Source: Actinomycetota bacterium (GTDB lineage: Bacteria; Actinomycetota; Thermoleophilia; Solirubrobacterales; Solirubrobacteraceae). Taken from it: 23,260 nt of DNA. The translations under genes were made by a program, and so were the position numbers. The number at the start of each line of letters is the position of its first letter. Position 1 is the stretch's first letter. The notes below the pieces were generated by a model, which was given only the letters and a program-made list of their open reading frames with translations, made no database searches and was not told where the DNA came from. The stretch covers positions 1-23,260 of the forward strand of contig VAXS01000113.1 in NCBI GenBank assembly GCA_005883255.1. Reading direction: 5' to 3'. Shown one piece after another: positions 1-20,175 of the stretch.

Positions 1-24
1 CTCGAGATACGAGCCGATGAACGC

Positions 25-46
25 GCGCCGACCCGCGCGTCGGCGC
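25..46. terminator. GC-rich hairpin downstream of the leftmost minus-strand operon
   Basis: Perfect 8-bp inverted repeat GCGCCGAC / GTCGGCGC with a 6-nt loop. It lies 40 bp past the stop of the transporter gene, in a stretch (1-85) where I see no gene. No T-tract follows on either strand, so it would be a non-canonical actinobacterial-type terminator. This is inference from position and symmetry. Confidence 0.4.
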
Positions 47-85
47 AGCCGCCGAGGGGCCTCTGAAGCGAGATTGGGATCTGAA

Positions 86-1060
86 TCAGTGGGAAGGGCC
101 ACCGGGCACATCGACAGTCGCGACTCTACCCGGGGTTTCGGCTGGCAAGCGCTCGTCCCTGCCAAGGAACGACCCAGAGATGGACGCGGCCGAGACGTCT
201 TCTGACTCCGCTCCCTGCAGCGCCGCCTGCGTGGGCGCCAGGCGCCAAGCGGCCGCCACCACCAGCGCGAACGCCGCGGCGTGGAGCGCCTGGAGCGGCG
301 GGCTGCCGCCCAGCCGGTCGCCGAGCACCGCGACGCCGCCCAGGATCGCGACCACGTTGGTGGCCGCGGTCATCAGCGCGATGACCGGTACGGCGCGGCC
401 CGTCTGGAGCGCCCGCTGGAAGCAGAAGAACGCCGCCACGGTGGCCAGCGCCGCGGCGGCCAGCCAGGGCGAGCGCAGGACGGCTCCCGCCCCGTGGTGG
501 TGCGCGATCGCCGTCAGCGCCTTGACCGCCATGTCCCCCGCGCCGTAGAGCACGCCGCCCGCGGCGCCCAGCGCCCCGGCGCCCGCCCGGGGCGCCGTCG
601 CGGCCAGCGCGGCGGCGAGCACGCCGGCGGCCCCCAGCGCAGCGGCGAGCGCCGGGGCGTTCACGACGGCGCCCCGGTCGGGGCCGAGGCCCGCGGACAG
701 CAGGGCGAGGGCCACCCCCAGGAGGACGACGGCTCGGCGCTCGCCGCGATCGAGGCGGTGGCCGAGACCGAGGGTGGCCAGGGGGACGGCGAGCACCAGT
801 CCGCCGGTGACGAACGCCTGGACCAGCGACAGCGGAGCGTGCGAGAGGGCGTCGACGTGCAGCGCCCACCCGCCCAGGCCCAGCGCCAGGCCCGCCAGCC
901 ACACCCGCGAGGCCAGCAGCCCGCGCAGGGTGGCGATGGGGCGCCGCGGCGTGACCGCCGGCGCGTCCGCCGCCCCGGCGTGCTGGAGCAGGAAGCCGGC
1001 GTTCAGCGCCAGCGAGGCGGCCAGCGCCAGTCCCAGGCCGAGCATCAGGCGCCCGCTCAC
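86..1060 (-). CDS. DMT-superfamily (EamA/NIPA-like) multi-pass membrane transporter
   Basis: Predicted integral membrane protein of 324 aa with about nine hydrophobic helices (roughly residues 5-25, 53-70, 78-98, 108-125, 135-154, 163-185, 197-215, 222-243 and 258-274). This is the layout of drug/metabolite transporter-superfamily proteins. The APLSLVQAF segment near residue 75 resembles NIPA-like members. I chose the GTG start at 1060 because GTGA overlaps the TGA stop of the upstream esterase gene, implying translational coupling, and because the reading frame upstream of it is antisense to that esterase. An in-frame ATG at 1045 is the alternative. The last 50 residues are hydrophilic with a less biased composition and may be a poorly conserved tail. 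The substrate cannot be read from sequence. Coupling to a lipid-type esterase and a lysyl-lipid synthase hints at an envelope role, which is inference. Confidence 0.8.
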   Translation of the reverse strand: MSGRLMLGLGLALAASLALNAGFLLQHAGAADAPAVTPRRPIATLRGLLASRVWLAGLALGLGGWALHVDALSHAPLSLVQAFVTGGLVLAVPLATLGLGHRLDRGERRAVVLLGVALALLSAGLGPDRGAVVNAPALAAALGAAGVLAAALAATAPRAGAGALGAAGGVLYGAGDMAVKALTAIAHHHGAGAVLRSPWLAAAALATVAAFFCFQRALQTGRAVPVIALMTAATNVVAILGGVAVLGDRLGGSPPLQALHAAAFALVVAAAWRLAPTQAALQGAESEDVSAASISGSFLGRDERLPAETPGRVATVDVPGGPSH

Positions 1061-2028
1061 GCCGGCACCGCCCTGATCCGGGCCGGCCGATGGCGCGGCC
1101 GATGCCCGGTCACCGAACCCGCCCGGAAGCGCAGGTCGGCGTAGCGCAGCATGTGCGGGATCTGGTCGCGCCACAGGCGCCAGGCGTGGTGCCCCGGGTA
1201 GAGCGCGAAGCGCACGTGGCCGCCCACCGCCTGAAGCTCCTGGCCAAACTCCGCGACCCGAAACCGGCCCGGGTCGCTGGTTCCGGTGTACAGGAAGGCC
1301 TGCAGCGGCTGACGGCGCAGCGCCCTGGCCATCCCCCACGCGTAGAACGCGGGGCTGTTGCCCGCCAGCTGCGCCACCGTGGCGTGCTTGAAGGGTCCCG
1401 TCGCCCTCTGGCGGAAGTAGCCGGACCAGCTCTCGACGGTCCCGAACGTCCGCAGGTGGTGCAGCGCCAGGTTCATGGCCGCGTACCCGCCCTCCGAGTT
1501 GCCGGCGATCGCCCGGTGAGCGCGGTCGGGGATCGTGGGCCAGGTGGCGTCCACGGTGTGCACCACGTCGAGCACGTAGTCCTCGAAGCGTCCCTTGGGG
1601 GTGTTGGCCCACTCGGTGTCGTCGCGGAACGTGTCGCCGTGTCGCCCGCTGGGCATCACCACCAGCATCGGCCCGATGGCGTGGGCGGCGATCAGCCGGT
1701 CGAGCGCGACTCCGAGGTCGCCGGCATTCAGGAACAGCGCGGGGAATCCCGGGGAGCCGTGCAGGAGGTAGAGGACCGGGAAGCGTTTACCGGCGGCTGA
1801 GAGGCGGTCGTAGCCTGGCGGCAGGTAGATGATGTACTCCTGCCGCTTGCGCAACGCCGGCGAATACGCCCACTCGGTCACCGCGCGCCCGCCCACCACG
1901 CCCTGGGGGTCGCGCGGCGGCGCGAACCCGCGATAGGTGTAGTAGTGGCTGGCATAGGACTCGACGCCCCACCCGCCCAGCGCCAGCCACGCCAGCGCCA
2001 GCGCCACCAGCGGCGCGCGGCGCCTCAT
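1057..2028 (-). CDS. Exported or membrane-anchored alpha/beta-hydrolase, PF00756 esterase family
   Basis: A 323-aa serine hydrolase. Residues 1-22 are an Arg-rich start followed by a hydrophobic stretch, giving a signal peptide or membrane anchor and placing the enzyme outside the cytoplasm. Family features seen: YLPPGY (68-73), LLHGSPG (oxyanion region, 88-94), nucleophile elbow GNSEGG with Ser178, probable acid Asp252 (GTSDPGRF), and His281 in GHHAW. It is clearly homologous to the esterase at 4289-5200, sharing AIAGxSxGG, AMNLALHH and SWSGYF. The ATG at 2028 gives a clean signal sequence with strong third-position GC. Its stop overlaps the transporter GTG. It lies downstream of an MprF-like synthase gene on the same strand, separated by a short opposite-strand gene. 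Known hydrolases such as AhyD of Enterococcus and PA0919 of Pseudomonas remove amino acids from aminoacyl-phosphatidylglycerol; a similar role is a reasoned guess. Trehalose-ester or other ester substrates are also possible. Confidence 0.85.
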   Translation of the reverse strand: MRRRAPLVALALAWLALGGWGVESYASHYYTYRGFAPPRDPQGVVGGRAVTEWAYSPALRKRQEYIIYLPPGYDRLSAAGKRFPVLYLLHGSPGFPALFLNAGDLGVALDRLIAAHAIGPMLVVMPSGRHGDTFRDDTEWANTPKGRFEDYVLDVVHTVDATWPTIPDRAHRAIAGNSEGGYAAMNLALHHLRTFGTVESWSGYFRQRATGPFKHATVAQLAGNSPAFYAWGMARALRRQPLQAFLYTGTSDPGRFRVAEFGQELQAVGGHVRFALYPGHHAWRLWRDQIPHMLRYADLRFRAGSVTGHRPRHRPARIRAVPA

Positions 2029-2505
2029 GTCCTGGCCCGCCTGGGCCGCGGCGCGCTGGGGGTCGCCGTCACCGTCGTCGCGACCGCCGCCGGCGTCGGC
2101 TGGCTGTACCTGCTGTTCCAGTGGGGCGCCCTGGACGCGGGGCCGCACGTCAGCGGCGCCCTGCCGCTCCAGCAGCTGGCGGGGAACGAGGCCCAGCCGC
2201 TCCTGCGCGTGGCGGTGGCCTGGCTGCCGGCGGGCGTGGCGGCGGGAGCGGCGCTCACCGCGCTCACGCGCATGGGCTGGGTGGCGCGGGCGGCGGTGGT
2301 GGCGCTGGTCTCCTGGCCGGTGCTGTTCGCCAGCGGCGCGATCTCCGACGCGATCGCGCTCAACGAGCGCCTGGACCAGCACCTCGGTCCCCAGCTGCGC
2401 AGCTCCGGCACGTGGGTGGCCGTGGGCCTGATGGTCATCGGCTCGCTCCTGACCGCGCGAGCGGACGCCGCGCGGGGGCGGGCGCGGGCAGCCACCTGGC
2501 GCTGA
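1945..2505 (+). CDS. Small multi-pass membrane protein of unknown function, start uncertain
   Basis: From about 2029 to the TGA at 2503-2505 this frame has nearly 100% G/C in third positions and encodes about four hydrophobic helices (around GALGVAVTVVATAAGVGWLY, LLRVAVAWLPAGVAAG, ARAAVVALVSWPVLF and WVAVGLMVIGSLL). I therefore take it as a real gene. The start is a problem. The only standard upstream start is GTG at 1945, but codons 1945-2028 look antisense (Gln/Arg-rich) to the esterase signal peptide. CTG at 2032 or 2041 would fit the coding signature, and the next GTG, at 2209, would lose helix one. An ATG at 2027 is one frame off, so a one-base error just after it is possible. The 3' end overlaps the convergent lysyltransferase gene by 71 bp. 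I do not recognise a family. It sits inside the esterase/synthase cluster. Confidence 0.6.
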   Translation: MAGIGLDAPPAQRQPRQRQRHQRRAAPHVLARLGRGALGVAVTVVATAAGVGWLYLLFQWGALDAGPHVSGALPLQQLAGNEAQPLLRVAVAWLPAGVAAGAALTALTRMGWVARAAVVALVSWPVLFASGAISDAIALNERLDQHLGPQLRSSGTWVAVGLMVIGSLLTARADAARGRARAATWR

Positions 2506-4156
2506 GCGGCCGGCTGCGCGGAGGGCGGAGGTAGGCCTCGGCCTGCAGCACCCGCAGGGCGGCCAGCGGCAGGTGCGTGCGCCGGCCGTAGATCAGGTAC
2601 CGCGGTCGCCAGCTCGGGAAGAACTTCTCGTTGAAGCGCACCAGGCGCTCGAGCTGGAAGCGCCCGCGGACCGCTCCCAAGCAGGCCCGCAGCAGCCGCT
2701 GGCGGCGGTTGAGGGCGGCGGTCGCGGCCATGATGTGCGCGAAGCCGGCGAAGTTGAGGCTCACCTCATCGCAGTTCCGCGCCCGCGCGTGCTCCAGCGC
2801 CGCCACCACCATCGCCTCGTTGAGTCCGTTGGGCTCGTCGTCGAGGCGGCGCATGCAGTCCAGGGAGAGCCCGCGGCCGTACTCGACGAAGCGCAGGAAG
2901 GCCCTCAGACGGCCGGCGGGATTGCGGGCCAGGACGTAGATTCCGCCCACGTCGCCGCCGGCGCCCCACAGGCGCCCGAGCGTCATCGCCCACCCCTGGA
3001 TGCGCGGGCGGCTGGCGCGCCAGGCCCGCTCCAGGGCGTCCAGCTCGTCCACCGTCGCCGGGTCGAGCTCCGGGTCCGACACCACCTCGACCGTCCAGCC
3101 GTGGCGGGCGACGCGGTTGACCGACTGGCGGACCTTGCGGATGGGCCGGCCCTCGAGCGAGAAGCGGCGGGGGTCCACGACCGCCTCGTTGCCGATGTGG
3201 ATCGTCCGCAGCCCGATCCGCTCGTACTCGGCCAGGTGGGCGGCGGAGGCCGCGGTCACCACGACGTCCCAGCCCCGGCGCACGGCCAGCCGCTGGAAGT
3301 CGGCCAGGATCGGCGCCGCGCTGCCGGGTGGGCCGATCGGGTCGCCGGACACCACGGCGGTGTCCCGCAGGGTCCGGTAGGCCAGGACCCCGCCGTGGGC
3401 GAAGTGGTAGGCCTTGTCCTCGCGCAGCGCGAACGGCGCCAACGAGTCGTTGCCGTGCCCGGCCACCAGGCGCGCCGCCGCCGCGTGGTCCGAGGGCGAG
3501 TGGCCGTCGTCGGCCGGTGCGGGCCGCAGGAGCTGGTAGACGAAGAGCGCCCCGGCGCCCAGGCCCACCAGGGCCAGGGCGTCGAGGCCCAGGCCGAGCG
3601 GCGTGGCCGGGTTTCGCGCGGCCGACTGCAGCCGCCCCGCCGCCTCGGCGGCCAGCGCCGCGCCGAGGCCCGAGGCGCGGCTCGTGAGCAGCGTGGCCGC
3701 GGTGGCCACCACGTAGGCGGTCGCGACCGTGCCCAGGGCCACGCTGCCGGCCAGGAGGCCGGGCCGCGCGTCGGATCCCCGCGGGAACGCCCGCCGCGTG
3801 GCCAGCAGCAGGCCGGCGAGCCCCACCGCCGCCACCGTGGGGGCGTCGGACAGGTCGCGCGAGAGCCGCACGATCGCCACCGTGCACAGCACCCCGATCG
3901 TGGCCTCGGCCGCCCGGCGCTTGCCCTGCACCAGGCCGCGCGCCAGTACCAGCAGCCCGCCGCCGGCGGCGATCGCCAGAAGCCGGGTGAAGCAGACCGA
4001 GCGCACGGGGGCGTTGAGCGACATCTGCCCGTGCCAGGGGTCCACGCGCGCCAGCGCGCCCAGCAGCGTCAGCGCCCCGGGGAGGGCGACGACCGCCGCG
4101 ACGCCCGTGCGCCACGCCCGTGCGAAAGCCGACCGTCGTCGGGCCGCGCGGTCCAT
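2435..4156 (-). CDS. MprF/LysX-type aminoacyl-phosphatidylglycerol synthase (TM region plus LPG_synthase_C/DUF2156 domain)
   Basis: A 573-aa protein. Residues 17-210 contain about six hydrophobic helices. Residues 225-530 form the GNAT-like lysyltransferase domain that moves an aminoacyl group from aminoacyl-tRNA to a membrane lipid head group, lowering surface charge. Recognisable family motifs: GDPIG (271-275), RKVRQSVNR (340-348), the CMRR...PNGLNEAMV block (434-450), VSLNFAGF (465-472, the actinobacterial LysX style) and FNEKFFPSWRPRYLIYG (508-524). It has no fused lysyl-tRNA synthetase domain, unlike mycobacterial LysX, and the membrane part is shorter than the 14-helix MprF flippase. 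It probably synthesises the lipid but may need another flippase. The Pro/Arg-rich tail after residue 540 is antisense to the membrane gene at 1945-2505. Amino-acid specificity (Lys, Orn or Ala) cannot be told from sequence. Homologous esterases lie on both sides. Confidence 0.88.
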   Translation of the reverse strand: MDRAARRRSAFARAWRTGVAAVVALPGALTLLGALARVDPWHGQMSLNAPVRSVCFTRLLAIAAGGGLLVLARGLVQGKRRAAEATIGVLCTVAIVRLSRDLSDAPTVAAVGLAGLLLATRRAFPRGSDARPGLLAGSVALGTVATAYVVATAATLLTSRASGLGAALAAEAAGRLQSAARNPATPLGLGLDALALVGLGAGALFVYQLLRPAPADDGHSPSDHAAAARLVAGHGNDSLAPFALREDKAYHFAHGGVLAYRTLRDTAVVSGDPIGPPGSAAPILADFQRLAVRRGWDVVVTAASAAHLAEYERIGLRTIHIGNEAVVDPRRFSLEGRPIRKVRQSVNRVARHGWTVEVVSDPELDPATVDELDALERAWRASRPRIQGWAMTLGRLWGAGGDVGGIYVLARNPAGRLRAFLRFVEYGRGLSLDCMRRLDDEPNGLNEAMVVAALEHARARNCDEVSLNFAGFAHIMAATAALNRRQRLLRACLGAVRGRFQLERLVRFNEKFFPSWRPRYLIYGRRTHLPLAALRVLQAEAYLRPPRSRPLSARWLPAPAPARRPLARSGASR

Positions 4157-4288
4157 GGCCGGGAGGGTGCGCTCGAAACCTTTTCCCAGCCCAATCCCAG
4201 GATTGAGCCTGATCGCGGAATTGTTGAGTTCAAGTTAGGGGCGCGGTCCAGGCCGCCGCCACCGCACCACCGGGCGGCCGCGCGCGTC
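4157..4288. promoter_or_regulatory. Divergent promoter region with small palindromes
   Basis: This 132-bp gap separates the divergent synthase and esterase genes. Its centre (about 4174-4240) is noticeably AT-richer than anything nearby. It contains CAATCC-CA-GGATTG (4192-4205) and TTGA-GT-TCAA (4224-4233), both short dyads suitable for a regulator shared by the two genes. No clean -35/-10 pair or Shine-Dalgarno could be assigned, so operator status is a suggestion only. Confidence 0.4.
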
Positions 4289-5200
4289 ATGTCAGAGGTG
4301 CGCTCCCACCGTCCGGTCCTGCTGCTCGCCACCGGCCTGGCGATGCTCGGGCTGGTCGGCACGGCCGGCGGGTCCCCTGCGCGCGGTCAGGTCGTGACCC
4401 GCACCCTGTGGTCGGCGGCGCTGGGGCGGCGCGAGCGCGTGGTCGTATACCTGCCGCCCGGCTACTCCGGAGCGCGGGCCGCGCGGTACCCGCTGGTCAT
4501 CCTCCTGCACGGCGTGCCCGGCCGCCCGGAGGACTTCGTGACCCACGGCGTGGTGGCGCGCATCGATGCGCTGATGGCAGCCGGGCGCATCCCGCCGTTC
4601 GTGGCCGCGATGCCCGCCGGCGGGGACCGGCCCACCGACGACAACGAGTGGGCGGACTCCGACCTGCGCCCCAGCGAGCGCTGGGAGACCTACGTGGCCC
4701 GCGACGTGGTCGGGTTCCTGCAGTCCCACTACCGGGTCCGGCGCGACGCGGCGGGGCGGGCGATCGCGGGCGAGTCGATGGGCGGCTTCGGGGCGATGAA
4801 TCTGGCGCTCCACCACCGCAACGAGTTCGGCGCCGTGGCCAGCTGGTCGGGCTACTTCAACGCCAACACGCCCAGCGTGCACAACCCCTCCTCTCCCGCC
4901 GGCCGCGGCTACTCGCCCCAGCACTACGTCAGCCGGCTGCGGCCGTCGCTCGCCGCCTGGCACCCGGCCATCGACTTCTACGTGGGCGGGAACGACCGCT
5001 TCGCCGCCGAGAACGCGACCTTCGATCGCACGCTGACGGCGCTGCACGTGCCGCACGGCTTTCGGATCGTGCCGGGCGCCGGCCACGGCTGGGCGCTGTG
5101 GACGTCGCAGCTGAACCGGGAGCTGGGGTTCCTGGAGAGCGCGCTGGCGGGGACGCCGGGCGGGCAGGCCGCGCCGGGCGGCGGCACGGCGGCCGGCTAG
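4289..5200 (+). CDS. Secreted alpha/beta-hydrolase, PF00756 esterase family (paralogue of 1057-2028)
   Basis: A 303-aa serine hydrolase with an N-terminal export signal (hydrophobic residues 9-27, small residues following). The triad is visible: Ser163 in GESMGG, Asp236 in GGNDR, His266 in GAGHGW, with YLPPGY at 54-59 and the oxyanion motif LLHGVPG at 72-78. It shares many blocks with the esterase at 1057-2028 (EWA, AMNLALHH, SWSGYF), so the two look like ancient duplicates flanking the synthase gene. The ATG at 4289 is the first start that yields a signal peptide; the long open frame upstream is antisense to the synthase. Its C-terminal tail (Gly/Ala-rich, 288-303) runs into a hairpin shared with the convergent crotonase gene. 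Likely acts extracytoplasmically on ester bonds. An aminoacyl-lipid substrate is inferred from context only. Confidence 0.87.
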   Translation: MSEVRSHRPVLLLATGLAMLGLVGTAGGSPARGQVVTRTLWSAALGRRERVVVYLPPGYSGARAARYPLVILLHGVPGRPEDFVTHGVVARIDALMAAGRIPPFVAAMPAGGDRPTDDNEWADSDLRPSERWETYVARDVVGFLQSHYRVRRDAAGRAIAGESMGGFGAMNLALHHRNEFGAVASWSGYFNANTPSVHNPSSPAGRGYSPQHYVSRLRPSLAAWHPAIDFYVGGNDRFAAENATFDRTLTALHVPHGFRIVPGAGHGWALWTSQLNRELGFLESALAGTPGGQAAPGGGTAAG

Positions 5201-5207
5201 CGGCCGC
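5189..5207. terminator. Bidirectional hairpin holding two convergent stop codons
   Basis: GCGGCCG (5189-5195) and CGGCCGC (5201-5207) form a perfect 7-bp stem, extendable by a G-T and a C-G pair. The 5-nt loop is GCTAG. The palindrome CTAG (5197-5200) in the loop is the TAG stop for both the plus-strand esterase and the minus-strand crotonase. No T-tract is present. Symmetry and position suggest a two-way terminator. Confidence 0.55.
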
Positions 5208-5862
5208 TGAACTCGGGCTGGCGCTTCTCGGCCAGGGCGCGCGCGCCCTCGGAGTAGTCCTGGCTGCGTGCGCACAGCTCCTGGACGGTGACCTCCTGCT
5301 CCAGCGTGGCGGCCAGCGCCGGCTTGGCCGCCGCGTCCATCACCCGCTTGGCGTGGCCGATCGCGATCGGGGCGCACATGATCAGCTCCTTCGCCCGGCC
5401 CAGCCCGACCACCGCCGGCAGCCGGGATGAGCCGCCCACGTCGGGGATCAGGCCCACGCGAGTCTCCGGAAGCCCCAGCATCGCGTCCTCGGCCGCCACC
5501 CGCAGGTCGCAGGCCAGCGCCAGCTCCAGCGCGCCGCCGATGCAGGCGCCGTGCACCTGGCATACCGTGGGCTTGGCCATCTCCTCGCACAGGTTCCAGG
5601 TCTCGAGGATCTCGCGGCGGAAGGCGCGGAGGTTCTCGGGCGCCTGGGAGAGGCCGACCAGGTCGGAGAAGTCCATCCCCGAGGAGAACATCGGCCCCTC
5701 GCCCCGGATCACCACGCAGCGCACCTCCGGGTCGTTGGCCGCGGCCTTGAGCGCGACGCCCAGCGCCTGGACCAGCTCGCCGTTCAACGCGTTGCGCTTC
5801 TCGGGGCGGTCGAGGACGACGTGGCGAACCGGGCCGCGATCCTCGGTCTGCACGATGGGCAT
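5197..5862 (-). CDS. Enoyl-CoA hydratase/isomerase (crotonase) with apparent internal deletion
   Basis: A 221-aa crotonase-fold protein; the family is usually near 255-260 aa. Seen in order: DRPEKRNALN (18-27), oxyanion-forming SSGMD (60-64), the HGACIGGALELALACD block with Glu113 in the first catalytic-glutamate position, and LPETRVGLIPDVGG with Glu133 in the second. Right after GRAKELIMCA (155-164) the sequence jumps to PIAIGHAKRVMD. The usual segment (RxIxAxEAxxxGLVNxVV...LAxxLA), about 38-40 residues, is missing in frame. Catalytic residues remain, but a helix-rich packing segment is lost, so stability or trimerisation may be impaired. The start ATG at 5862 is 7 nt downstream of a TAGGCT -10 box, consistent with a leaderless mRNA. 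It is divergent from the dehydrogenase gene, and both fit beta-oxidation. Confidence 0.88.
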   Translation of the reverse strand: MPIVQTEDRGPVRHVVLDRPEKRNALNGELVQALGVALKAAANDPEVRCVVIRGEGPMFSSGMDFSDLVGLSQAPENLRAFRREILETWNLCEEMAKPTVCQVHGACIGGALELALACDLRVAAEDAMLGLPETRVGLIPDVGGSSRLPAVVGLGRAKELIMCAPIAIGHAKRVMDAAAKPALAATLEQEVTVQELCARSQDYSEGARALAEKRQPEFSGR

Positions 5863-5869
5863 GTCGCGG

Positions 5870-5887
5870 AGCCTACTCGGCTAGGCT
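5870..5887. promoter_or_regulatory. Back-to-back leaderless promoters of the crotonase and dehydrogenase genes
   Basis: AGCCTA-CTCGGC-TAGGCT is an inverted repeat. Read outward it gives TAGGCT on the minus strand (5875-5870), 7 nt before the crotonase ATG, and TAGGCT on the plus strand (5882-5887), 9 nt before the dehydrogenase ATG. The whole intergenic gap is 34 bp with no Shine-Dalgarno on either side. The two -10 elements are only 6 bp apart, so polymerases could not occupy both at once. No -35 consensus is evident. Confidence 0.6.
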
Positions 5888-5896
5888 GCCCGGCCG

Positions 5897-6673
5897 ATGG
5901 CGGAGATCGGGAAGGTGGGCGTCGTGGGCTGCGGCCTCATGGGCCACGGCATCGCGCAGGTGGCGGCGGAGGCGGGCTACGAGGTCGCGGTGCGCGAGGT
6001 GGACGACGCCACGCTCCAGAAGGGGCTGGGGAAGATCGAGAAGCAGCTGGCCCGGGCGGTGGAGAAGGGGCGGGCCGAGCAGGCCGACGCCGACGCGGTG
6101 CGCGCGCGCATCCGTGGCTCCACCGACTACGCCGACCTGGCCGAGTGCGACCTGGTGATCGAGGCGATCACCGAGGACCTCCAGCTCAAGCTCGACATGT
6201 GGCGCGAGGTCGATGGGATCGTCAAGTCCGAGGCGCACTTCGCCACCAACACCTCCTCGCTGCCGGTGGTGGACCAGGCGGTGGCCGAGTTCACGGGCTC
6301 CCTGGGCAAGCTCGCCGTCCCAACCCGCGACACCGCCGGGTTCGTCGTCAACCGGCTGCTCGTCCCCTTCCTGCTGGACGGCATGCGGGCCTACGAGGAG
6401 GGCGTGGGCTCGATCGCCGAGATCGACGAGGCCATGAAGGCGGGCGCCGGCCACCCGATGGGGCCGCTGACGCTGTCGGACTTCGTCGGCCTGGACACGC
6501 TGGGCTCGATCTGCGACGTGATGTTCGAGGAGTTCCGGGAGAAGCGCTTCGCGCAGCCGCCGATCCTGCGCAAGATGCTGGCCGCGGGGTGGTACGGCCG
6601 CAAGAGCGGGATGGGCTTCTACGACTACTCCGGCGACGCGCCGGTCGAGAACCCCGGCGTCGCGCGTTCCTAG
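5897..6673 (+). CDS. 3-hydroxyacyl-CoA dehydrogenase, missing the catalytic His/Glu segment
   Basis: A 258-aa homologue of 3-hydroxybutyryl-CoA dehydrogenase, whose members are about 280-295 aa. The Rossmann NAD site GCGLMGHG (11-18) is intact, as are NTSSLP (118-123), GFVVNRLLVPF (148-158), the C-terminal HPMGPLTLSDFVGLD block and GRKSGMGFYDYS. Between NTSSLPVVDQAVA and EFTGSLGK (junction near residue 130, base 6286) I expect about 39 further residues carrying the family HFFNP and LVEV motifs, with the catalytic His and its Glu partner. They are absent with no frameshift. As written the enzyme should be catalytically dead. Start ATG 5897 follows TAGGCT by 9 nt. Intact members catalyse oxidation of 3-hydroxyacyl-CoA with NAD+ in beta-oxidation or butyrate/PHB pathways. 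Confidence 0.9.
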   Translation: MAEIGKVGVVGCGLMGHGIAQVAAEAGYEVAVREVDDATLQKGLGKIEKQLARAVEKGRAEQADADAVRARIRGSTDYADLAECDLVIEAITEDLQLKLDMWREVDGIVKSEAHFATNTSSLPVVDQAVAEFTGSLGKLAVPTRDTAGFVVNRLLVPFLLDGMRAYEEGVGSIAEIDEAMKAGAGHPMGPLTLSDFVGLDTLGSICDVMFEEFREKRFAQPPILRKMLAAGWYGRKSGMGFYDYSGDAPVENPGVARS

Positions 6674-9856: not shown

Positions 9857-10453
9857 GTGCCGCTCGCCCTCCTCTCGATTCCCCGGAACCTCGGGTACGT
9901 CGCGCTGGCCGCCCTGGTGGGCACCGAGGCCAGCGGCGTGCCCGTGCCCGGCGAGACCGCGCTGATCACCGCGTCGGTCCTGTCCTCGGACGGGAAGCTG
10001 GCCATCGAGGCGGTGATCGCGATCGCCGCGGCGTCGGCCATCGTCGGGGACAACATCGGCTACCTGCTGGGCGCCCGCTTCGGCCGGCGGTTGCTCACCC
10101 GCCCGGGGCGGACCTACGAGCACCGGGTGCGCGCGCTGCGCCGCGGCGATGAGCTGTTCGCCCGCCATGGCGCCAAGGCGGTGTTCTTCGGACGCTGGAT
10201 CGCCGGCCTGCGGGTGTGGGCGGCCTGGCTGGCCGGCATGACCAGCATGCGCTGGCCCACGTTCCTGGTCTGGAACGCGCTGGGCGGCATCGCCTGGGCG
10301 CTCTGGTTCGGCCTGCTGGGCTACTTCGGCGGGGCGGCCGCCGCCCACGTGGTCGAGCGGGTGGGCATCGGAGCGGGGATCGCCGTCGTCTCGGGCGCGC
10401 TGATGCTCTACGTGGGGATTCGCTGGCGGCTGCGCCGGCGGGCCCGGCGCTAG
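9857..10453 (+). CDS. DedA-family (SNARE-associated/VTT domain) membrane protein
   Basis: A 198-aa membrane protein. Family landmarks: the re-entrant-loop motif GTEASGVPVPGETALITA (22-39) containing the key PxPGE sequence, GDNIGYLLGARFG (64-76), then FFGRWIAGLRVWAAWLAGM (110-128), matching the DedA FxGRFxPxxRxxxxxxAG pattern with the important arginines, and a last helix at 172-188. DedA proteins are proposed to act in undecaprenyl-phosphate or phospholipid translocation and in membrane homeostasis. The GTG at 9857 is the first start in frame. Residues before the PxPGE motif are short, as is common. Stop TAG overlaps a CTAG. Confidence 0.88.
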   Translation: MPLALLSIPRNLGYVALAALVGTEASGVPVPGETALITASVLSSDGKLAIEAVIAIAAASAIVGDNIGYLLGARFGRRLLTRPGRTYEHRVRALRRGDELFARHGAKAVFFGRWIAGLRVWAAWLAGMTSMRWPTFLVWNALGGIAWALWFGLLGYFGGAAAAHVVERVGIGAGIAVVSGALMLYVGIRWRLRRRARR

Positions 10454-19364: not shown

Positions 19365-19465
19365 GTCAGTGCGGCGGGTGGGATTCGAACCCACACGCCC
19401 TTGCGGGCAGCGGCTTTTGAGGCCGCCGAGTCTGCCATTCCTCCACCGCCGCGGGTGGCACTGAC
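19365..19465. repeat. 8-bp inverted repeat bracketing tRNA-Leu(CAA)
   Basis: GTCAGTGC (19365-19372) and GCACTGAC (19458-19465) are perfect reverse complements on either side of the tRNA. The left copy covers the last tRNA bases plus trailer and the right copy lies in the leader. In the precursor RNA the leader could pair with the CCA-proximal 3' end, competing with or extending the acceptor stem and possibly influencing end processing. Confidence 0.5.
19370..19452 (-). tRNA. tRNA-Leu (anticodon CAA)
   Basis: 83 nt. Acceptor GCGGCGG pairs with CCGCCGC, discriminator A. D-arm GAG...CTC, anticodon stem GCGGC/GCCGC with loop CTCAAAA (anticodon CAA, reads UUG). The long class II variable arm (TGCCCGCAAGGGCGT) is typical of leucine, and the T-arm is GTGGG-TTCGAAT-CCCAC. 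The CCA end is not encoded. Minus-strand -10 TATAGT lies just upstream. Confidence 0.96.
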
Positions 19466-20062: not shown

Positions 20063-20148
20063 GCGGGCGTGGCGGAACTGGCAGACGCGCCGGCCTTAGG
20101 AGCCGGTGGGCCACCCGGCCCTTGGGGGTTCGAGTCCCTCCGCCCGCA
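20063..20148 (+). tRNA. tRNA-Leu (anticodon UAG)
   Basis: 86 nt. Acceptor GCGGGCG pairs with CGCCCGC, discriminator A. D-arm GCG...CGC, anticodon stem CCGGC/GCCGG with loop CTTAGGA (anticodon TAG, reads CUA and other CUN). Long variable arm and T-loop TTCGAGT are present. CCA is not encoded. A CTGCG/CGCAG 5-bp hairpin (20036-20050) lies just upstream. No clear -10 was assigned. Confidence 0.96.
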
Positions 20149-20175
20149 CTGTCCAGTCCACGCGCTGCGAGGGAC

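Follow-up and report, generated by a model that had tools for sequence, protein, structure and literature searches.

The stretch analysed here (the window) is an entire contig of 23,260 nucleotides (VAXS01000113.1; G000:C168) from the incomplete genome (72.4% complete) of a soil-type actinobacterium of the Solirubrobacteraceae. Near its start lie five neighbouring genes coding for a DMT-like transporter, two esterases (EstA and EstB), a small membrane protein (SMP) and an aminoacyl-lipid synthase (Syn), which probably act as a module (Table 1). A sequence-only reading of this DNA had proposed a synthase flanked by two exported hydrolases of one family, with a small membrane protein between EstA and Syn. 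The profile searches agree with this layout, since Syn matched PF09924 at 211.5 bits (cut-off 27.5), while EstA and EstB matched PF00756 at 76.6 and 103.2 bits, respectively (cut-off 22), and SMP is indeed found there on the opposite strand. EstB additionally matched Hydrolase_4 below its cut-off. One correction to the five-gene grouping is needed, as EstB is divergent from Syn and does not share an operon with it. The proposed export fits the hydrophobic segment of EstB, whereas the N-terminus of EstA fell below the hydropathy threshold used; its membrane anchor is based on the predicted N-terminal helix and on relatives, for example L095 (L, G, f and g are our handles for loci, genomes, families and genera), in which the N-terminus is more hydrophobic. 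The supposed coupling of the transporter to EstA stands in the form of a 4-nt gene overlap, GTGA at 1057-1060, in which the transporter start lies over the EstA stop. The transporter itself is DMT-like and weakly typed, because both model scores were below the cut-offs.

Table 1. Module genes and conserved esterase residues in the window
Feature	Position	Strand	Description or evidence
DMT/NIPA-like multi-transmembrane (TM) transporter	86-1060	-	NCBIfam DMT_1 (NF038012) 35.6 bits, cut-off 50; Pfam NIPA (PF05653) 16.1 bits, cut-off 26.2
EstA, PF00756 esterase	1057-2028	-	Probably membrane-anchored; predicted N-terminal helix at residues 5-33
EstA juxtamembrane motif, residues 25-38	1915-1956	-	Y25, Y32, R33, G34 and P38 invariant across an alignment of 32 sequences selected as relatives
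EstA E139-W140	1609-1614	-	Part of the module-esterase signature; 44/44 EstA rows
EstA nucleophile Ser178 (GNSEGG)	1495-1497	-	By alignment; 44/44 EstA rows
EstA W201-S-G-Y204 motif	1417-1428	-	44/44 EstA rows
EstA triad Asp252	1273-1275	-	By alignment; 43/44 rows
EstA triad His281	1186-1188	-	By alignment; 44/44 rows
SMP, small protein	1945-2505	+	Four hydrophobic segments; family without a Pfam model
Syn, aminoacyl-lipid synthase	2435-4156	-	TM domain and LPG_synthase_C; no flippase half
EstB, PF00756 esterase	4289-5200	+	N-terminal hydrophobic segment 8-29; divergent from Syn
EstB triad	4775-4777; 4994-4996; 5084-5086	+	By alignment; Ser163 (nucleophile), Asp236 and His266

SMP is encoded antisense to Syn and EstA, fills the space between them and extends into both genes, by 71 bp at the 3' end of Syn and by 84 bp at the 5' end of EstA if the GTG at 1945 is the start. 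This start is uncertain, and homology to relatives was detected from 2035 on. SMP would thus be nested within an operon that is read in the opposite direction. A promoter scan of window positions 1-6000 found no sigma-70-like promoter.

Syn is a protein of 573 aa with PF09924 as its only Pfam domain and no LysRS domain. It scored 195 bits against the MprF model NF033480 (cut-off 600), with a match from profile position 317 on, and the flippase half is absent. From its sequence, Syn is probably an aminoacyl-tRNA-to-lipid transferase. In a synthase tree of 115 rows, two clades with support 100 each, one of 26 rows and one of 15 (including a row with no EstA within reach), contain 40 of the 41 EstA-linked rows; the exception is a second synthase in L260. 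A separate clade (support 100) comprises 16 of the 17 LysRS-fused rows, including the second synthase of the window genome (G000:C142; L039 2058-6266), in which LysRS comes first and LPG_synthase_C second. Our trees were built quickly, with SH-aLRT as the sole measure of support, and they contain some duplicate rows (L240 is the window, and several LysRS-fused rows are one place entered twice). Two paralogs, an AlaDAGS-like one and LysX, are reported for many Actinobacteria, especially for the Corynebacterium-Mycobacterium-Nocardia group (PMC10580965). By analogy, Syn may be the non-lysine paralog of the window genome. As the genome also encodes a LysRS-fused synthase, the amino acid used by Syn is most likely one other than lysine.

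The supposed link between esterase and synthase was also found across genomes. The 399 genomes of the class were searched with EstA, and at most five candidates per genome were scored, so absences are soft, as they are in a further scan with at most three candidates per genome. The EstA search yielded 38 matches (E <= 1.3e-44), distributed over 36 genomes. Profile scoring found Syn within 6 kb of 36 of these matches, SMP of 35, DMT of 32 and another esterase of 29. For the two matches without Syn, the nearest contig end is 830 and 367 bases away; SMP is still present at one of the two. With one to two synthases per genome of about 3 Mb, the chance of a synthase in such a stretch is arithmetically estimated at less than 1%. 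These 38 matches are the only set selected from the EstA side alone, as the wider loci were chosen for either the synthase or EstA (8 duplicates removed). Those wider loci contain 45 EstA genes, which had Syn (43), SMP (40), DMT (36) and another esterase (29) within 6 kb; SMP was additionally found in L092 and L094, where it overlaps the Syn match. When at least 5 kb was available on both sides (n = 20), Syn accompanied all 20 EstA genes, DMT 19, SMP 18 and another esterase 15.

Free clustering of the genes in 55 loci gave a similar picture, with esterases (22) and DMT (21) as the commonest companions of the synthase; response regulators were found in 14 loci, an MFS transporter in 13 and kinases in 12. 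A two-component system was rejected as a core part, as a matching response regulator occurred in only 5 EstA loci. At six synthases without module esterases (L070, L071, L072, L073, L099, and L109), a same-strand MFS transporter lies 2-5 kb upstream.

The EstA profile retrieved 79 loci from named genomes. Syn was present in 11 of the 12 closest, and the 12th ends inside SMP. In the 67 more distant loci, Syn was found within the stretch examined in only two, L152 (Ktedonobacteraceae) and L183 (Leucobacter). All five parts are present in the cultured species Patulibacter medicamentivorans (L140; Thermoleophilia, Solirubrobacterales), where a response regulator and a kinase accompany them, and strain I11 at this locus has sequence in common with stretch L098 of G213, a genome of the same family (f1) as the window genome. 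The distribution of the set is patchy. The genome G001, of the same genus as the window genome, has no EstA match at E 1e-20, and its only synthase is LysRS-fused. In genus g15 (9 genomes including G015, G330, and G301), EstA relatives are present and a PF09924 match is absent from 8 of the 9; the remaining genome has a partial PF09924 match on a different contig from the EstA relative. The g15 relatives L155 and L268 fall inside an EstA clade (support 98), yet they lack the module-esterase motifs.

Gene order and natural fusions also tie the parts together. The arrangement Syn> SMP< EstA> is seen in 7 of the 14 loci of families f1 and f2, with DMT> next if the contig extends far enough, and other loci read EstA> Syn> DMT> or Syn> EstA> DMT>. 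Family f7 and the records named Acidimicrobiaceae and Streptosporangiaceae show the order EstA> SMP=Syn> DMT> (= denotes one reading frame), and many f7 loci have one or two further esterases. SMP and Syn share a single reading frame in 28 loci, and the possibility that SMP is a shadow reading frame was rejected for this reason. In L095 and L097, EstA, DMT and SMP are in one frame, which in L097 (5389-8988) codes for 1200 aa comprising the esterase, DMT, SMP and a beta-lactamase-family domain. DMT is joined to an EstC-type esterase, the third clade described below, in L103 (7098-7994) and L106 (11446-12291). Thus, every kind of part, whether synthase, SMP, transporter or esterase, is somewhere joined to another kind.

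A Pfam search with 27 SMP members gave no family at E < 0.001, the best being MARVEL (0.0023, 2 members) and DUF5134 (0.0032, 1 member), and a known Pfam domain was accordingly rejected for SMP. In the fusions, SMP occupies the position where MprF carries its flippase half. The predicted fold of an SMP=Syn homolog matches MprF from about residue 332 on with its residues from 142 on, a match that takes in the MprF synthase domain. No row in its fold list stems from SMP; the synthase domain dominates the list, which is uninformative on the SMP fold. DMT-like sequence lies near some LysRS-fused synthases as well (4 of 11 places in Thermoleophilia). In the window genome, a DMT-like stretch (L039 2263-2790) lies directly upstream of the LysRS-fused synthase. 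In family f35, none of 10 places with long synthase frames (two checked for LysRS) had DMT-like sequence; most loci of this survey had only about 1.5 kb of flank. These observations fit, weakly, a general role of DMT beside synthases without a flippase.

EstA is predicted to have an alpha/beta-hydrolase fold, most similar to those of feruloyl esterases and related carbohydrate esterases (CE1 hydrolases). The signature motif set was present throughout the EstA and EstB rows and absent from every outside row; of 69 outside rows, 4 had E139, and WSGY was missing from all four. In the esterase tree, 81 of the 88 rows of the module group are located at most 6 kb from a synthase, and two or three esterases of separate clades are kept beside it. 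The third clade, EstC, has Ser178 in 10 of 11 rows, and His replaces Asp252 in all 11, while His281 is not conserved. This triad loss rules out equal activity of all module esterases. As judged from the sequences, EstC is possibly a pseudoenzyme kept in the module (L103, L106 and nine other rows). The EstA homologs with a source-given name, among the best 120 listed, are mostly called enterochelin esterase-like enzymes, a label that we disfavour because the gene context argues otherwise.

Single esterases also accompany a synthase elsewhere. At 9 loci of family f30, one esterase is divergent from the synthase and forms its own clade outside the module group. Family f35, which includes G658, has 17 synthase places in ten genomes, and 9 stretches of 11-13 kb were examined, 2 of them with a LysRS-fused synthase. 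In one (L293 of G658), a PF00756 esterase of 432 aa is encoded immediately upstream of a synthase that has no LysRS match, and this esterase and EstA share 27% identity over 230 aa (E 7e-9); none of the other 8 f35 loci examined had an esterase beside the synthase. The LGFP repeats used to select mycolata genomes matched 60 of 326 genomes and a Methanosarcina control, so f35 is only presumed to be mycolata.

Taken together, our results suggest, with a probability of about 0.85, that the five genes act together on an aminoacyl lipid. The model is based on homology, recurrent linkage, natural fusions, triads assigned by alignment and predicted folds. Syn would transfer an amino acid from aminoacyl-tRNA to a membrane glycerolipid, diacylglycerol (DAG) or phosphatidylglycerol (PG), on the cytoplasmic side. 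SMP and DMT might replace the missing MprF flippase half, so that the aminoacyl lipid is presented on the outer face. In Corynebacterium glutamicum, a study cited in PMC10580965 (Smith 2015, Mol Microbiol 98:681) reportedly found that the synthase makes Ala-DAG and that Ala-PG also requires an upstream esterase, PesT, which is presumably a PF00756 esterase beside a non-LysRS synthase. EstA, anchored in the membrane through its N-terminal helix, may likewise accept the aminoacyl group on Ser178 and hand it on to a second acceptor, for instance PG, which is the role suggested for PesT. EstB, separately exported, might act on the same lipid or its product, by transfer to another acceptor or by hydrolysis. 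This full mechanism, including transfer by EstA, is put forward tentatively, at a little under even odds. A bolder version is unlikely: the module would be a line for tRNA-dependent amino-acid export, with a lipid carrier loaded by the synthase, SMP and DMT as a new kind of flippase, and several transaminoacylases serving different outer-envelope acceptors, lipids or wall polymers, like Dlt for D-alanine but fed by tRNA.

The role first suggested for the esterases was to reset the lipid by hydrolysis, and this interpretation is partly supported. Both would then be AcvB/AhyD-type hydrolases stripping the amino acid from the lipid and differing in specificity or timing. The alpha/beta-hydrolase fold predicted for EstA, its resemblance to CE1 hydrolases and the triads conserved by alignment in both EstA and EstB are consistent with such a role. 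AcvB is reported to hydrolyse Lys-PG and to interact with its synthase (PMC13197417). On the other hand, a single hydrolase would be enough for a reset, but the synthase is accompanied by two or three esterases from separate clades. Nor did EstA or EstB match the separate Pfam family to which VirJ belongs. In the nearest known actinobacterial arrangement, AlaDAGS with PesT, a second lipid is reportedly made via the esterase, and transfer is for this reason at least as likely as reset. Resetting by both esterases is possible, with the odds somewhat against it.

The same CE1-like folds, together with the enterochelin esterase-like names of the homologs, might instead point to esterases acting on other envelope acyl esters, such as acylated glycans, in a module that only coordinates envelope properties. 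This is difficult to reconcile with a synthase at 36 of 38 EstA matches, with the fusions of esterases to DMT and SMP, and with a motif set confined to the EstA and EstB rows, and we consider it distinctly improbable. A chance assembly of unrelated neighbours would accord with the absence of the set from the same-genus genome and with the g15 relatives, which mostly lack a synthase in the genome. It is contradicted by the linkage counts (36/38; 43/45), by the recurrent order and by fusions that repeat in several families and in the records named Acidimicrobiaceae and Streptosporangiaceae, and its probability is close to negligible.

Other features of the window were recorded as well. The genes for an enoyl-CoA hydratase (5197-5862) and a 3-hydroxyacyl-CoA dehydrogenase (5897-6673) look short, with best stretches at positions 6-156 of 251 in the hydratase profile and 1-120 of 180 in the NAD-binding profile, and both may have internal deletions. 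A membrane protein with a VTT domain (DedA-like), a family linked to lipid transport, is encoded at 9857-10453, 4.7 kb from EstB. Two tRNA-Leu genes, caa (19369-19452) and tag (20063-20149), are located on opposite strands 0.6 kb apart.

Synthases paired with an exported esterase or hydrolase are already known. What appears to be new here is that two or three esterases, a new small membrane protein and a DMT are kept with the synthase, and no report of such a stable set was found in the literature searched (open-licence papers). The short actinobacterial synthases are without the MprF flippase half. For the passage of their lipids across the membrane, SMP and DMT provide two concrete candidates that are tied by natural fusions to the synthase and the esterases, and the esterase partner has multiplied into distinct clades retained with the synthase. 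The model is testable by genetics and lipidomics because the cultured P. medicamentivorans has all five parts.

Among known systems, AlaDAGS with PesT of C. glutamicum is similar in having a LysRS-free synthase beside a putative esterase in an actinobacterium, while the module described here has one to three esterases as well as the SMP family and DMT; the likeness of EstA to PesT is one of gene context, and the G658 esterase with 27% identity to EstA has a comparable position. The antigen 85/PS1 mycolyltransferases share the fold class of EstA, and their fold is capable of acyl transfer outside the cell, though they match EstA more weakly than the feruloyl esterases do. MprF (7duw, 7f47, 9goe) aligns with the SMP=Syn homolog in its synthase domain and the adjacent TM half; its N-terminal flippase half is absent from Syn, and SMP stands in its place in the fusions. 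Syn resembles LysX in having a short TM domain and LPG_synthase_C (PMC10580965), and it scored 241.8 bits against the LysX model NF002821. However, this is below the cut-off of 742, and Syn has no LysRS domain and belongs to a clade apart from 16 of the 17 LysRS-fused rows. LpiA/AcvB of Agrobacterium tumefaciens also combines an aminoacyl-lipid synthase with an exported alpha/beta hydrolase, and AcvB has two alpha/beta domains, in contrast to the single PF00756 domain in each of EstA and EstB (PMC13197417). It further differs from the window module in that the window synthase is without the flippase half.

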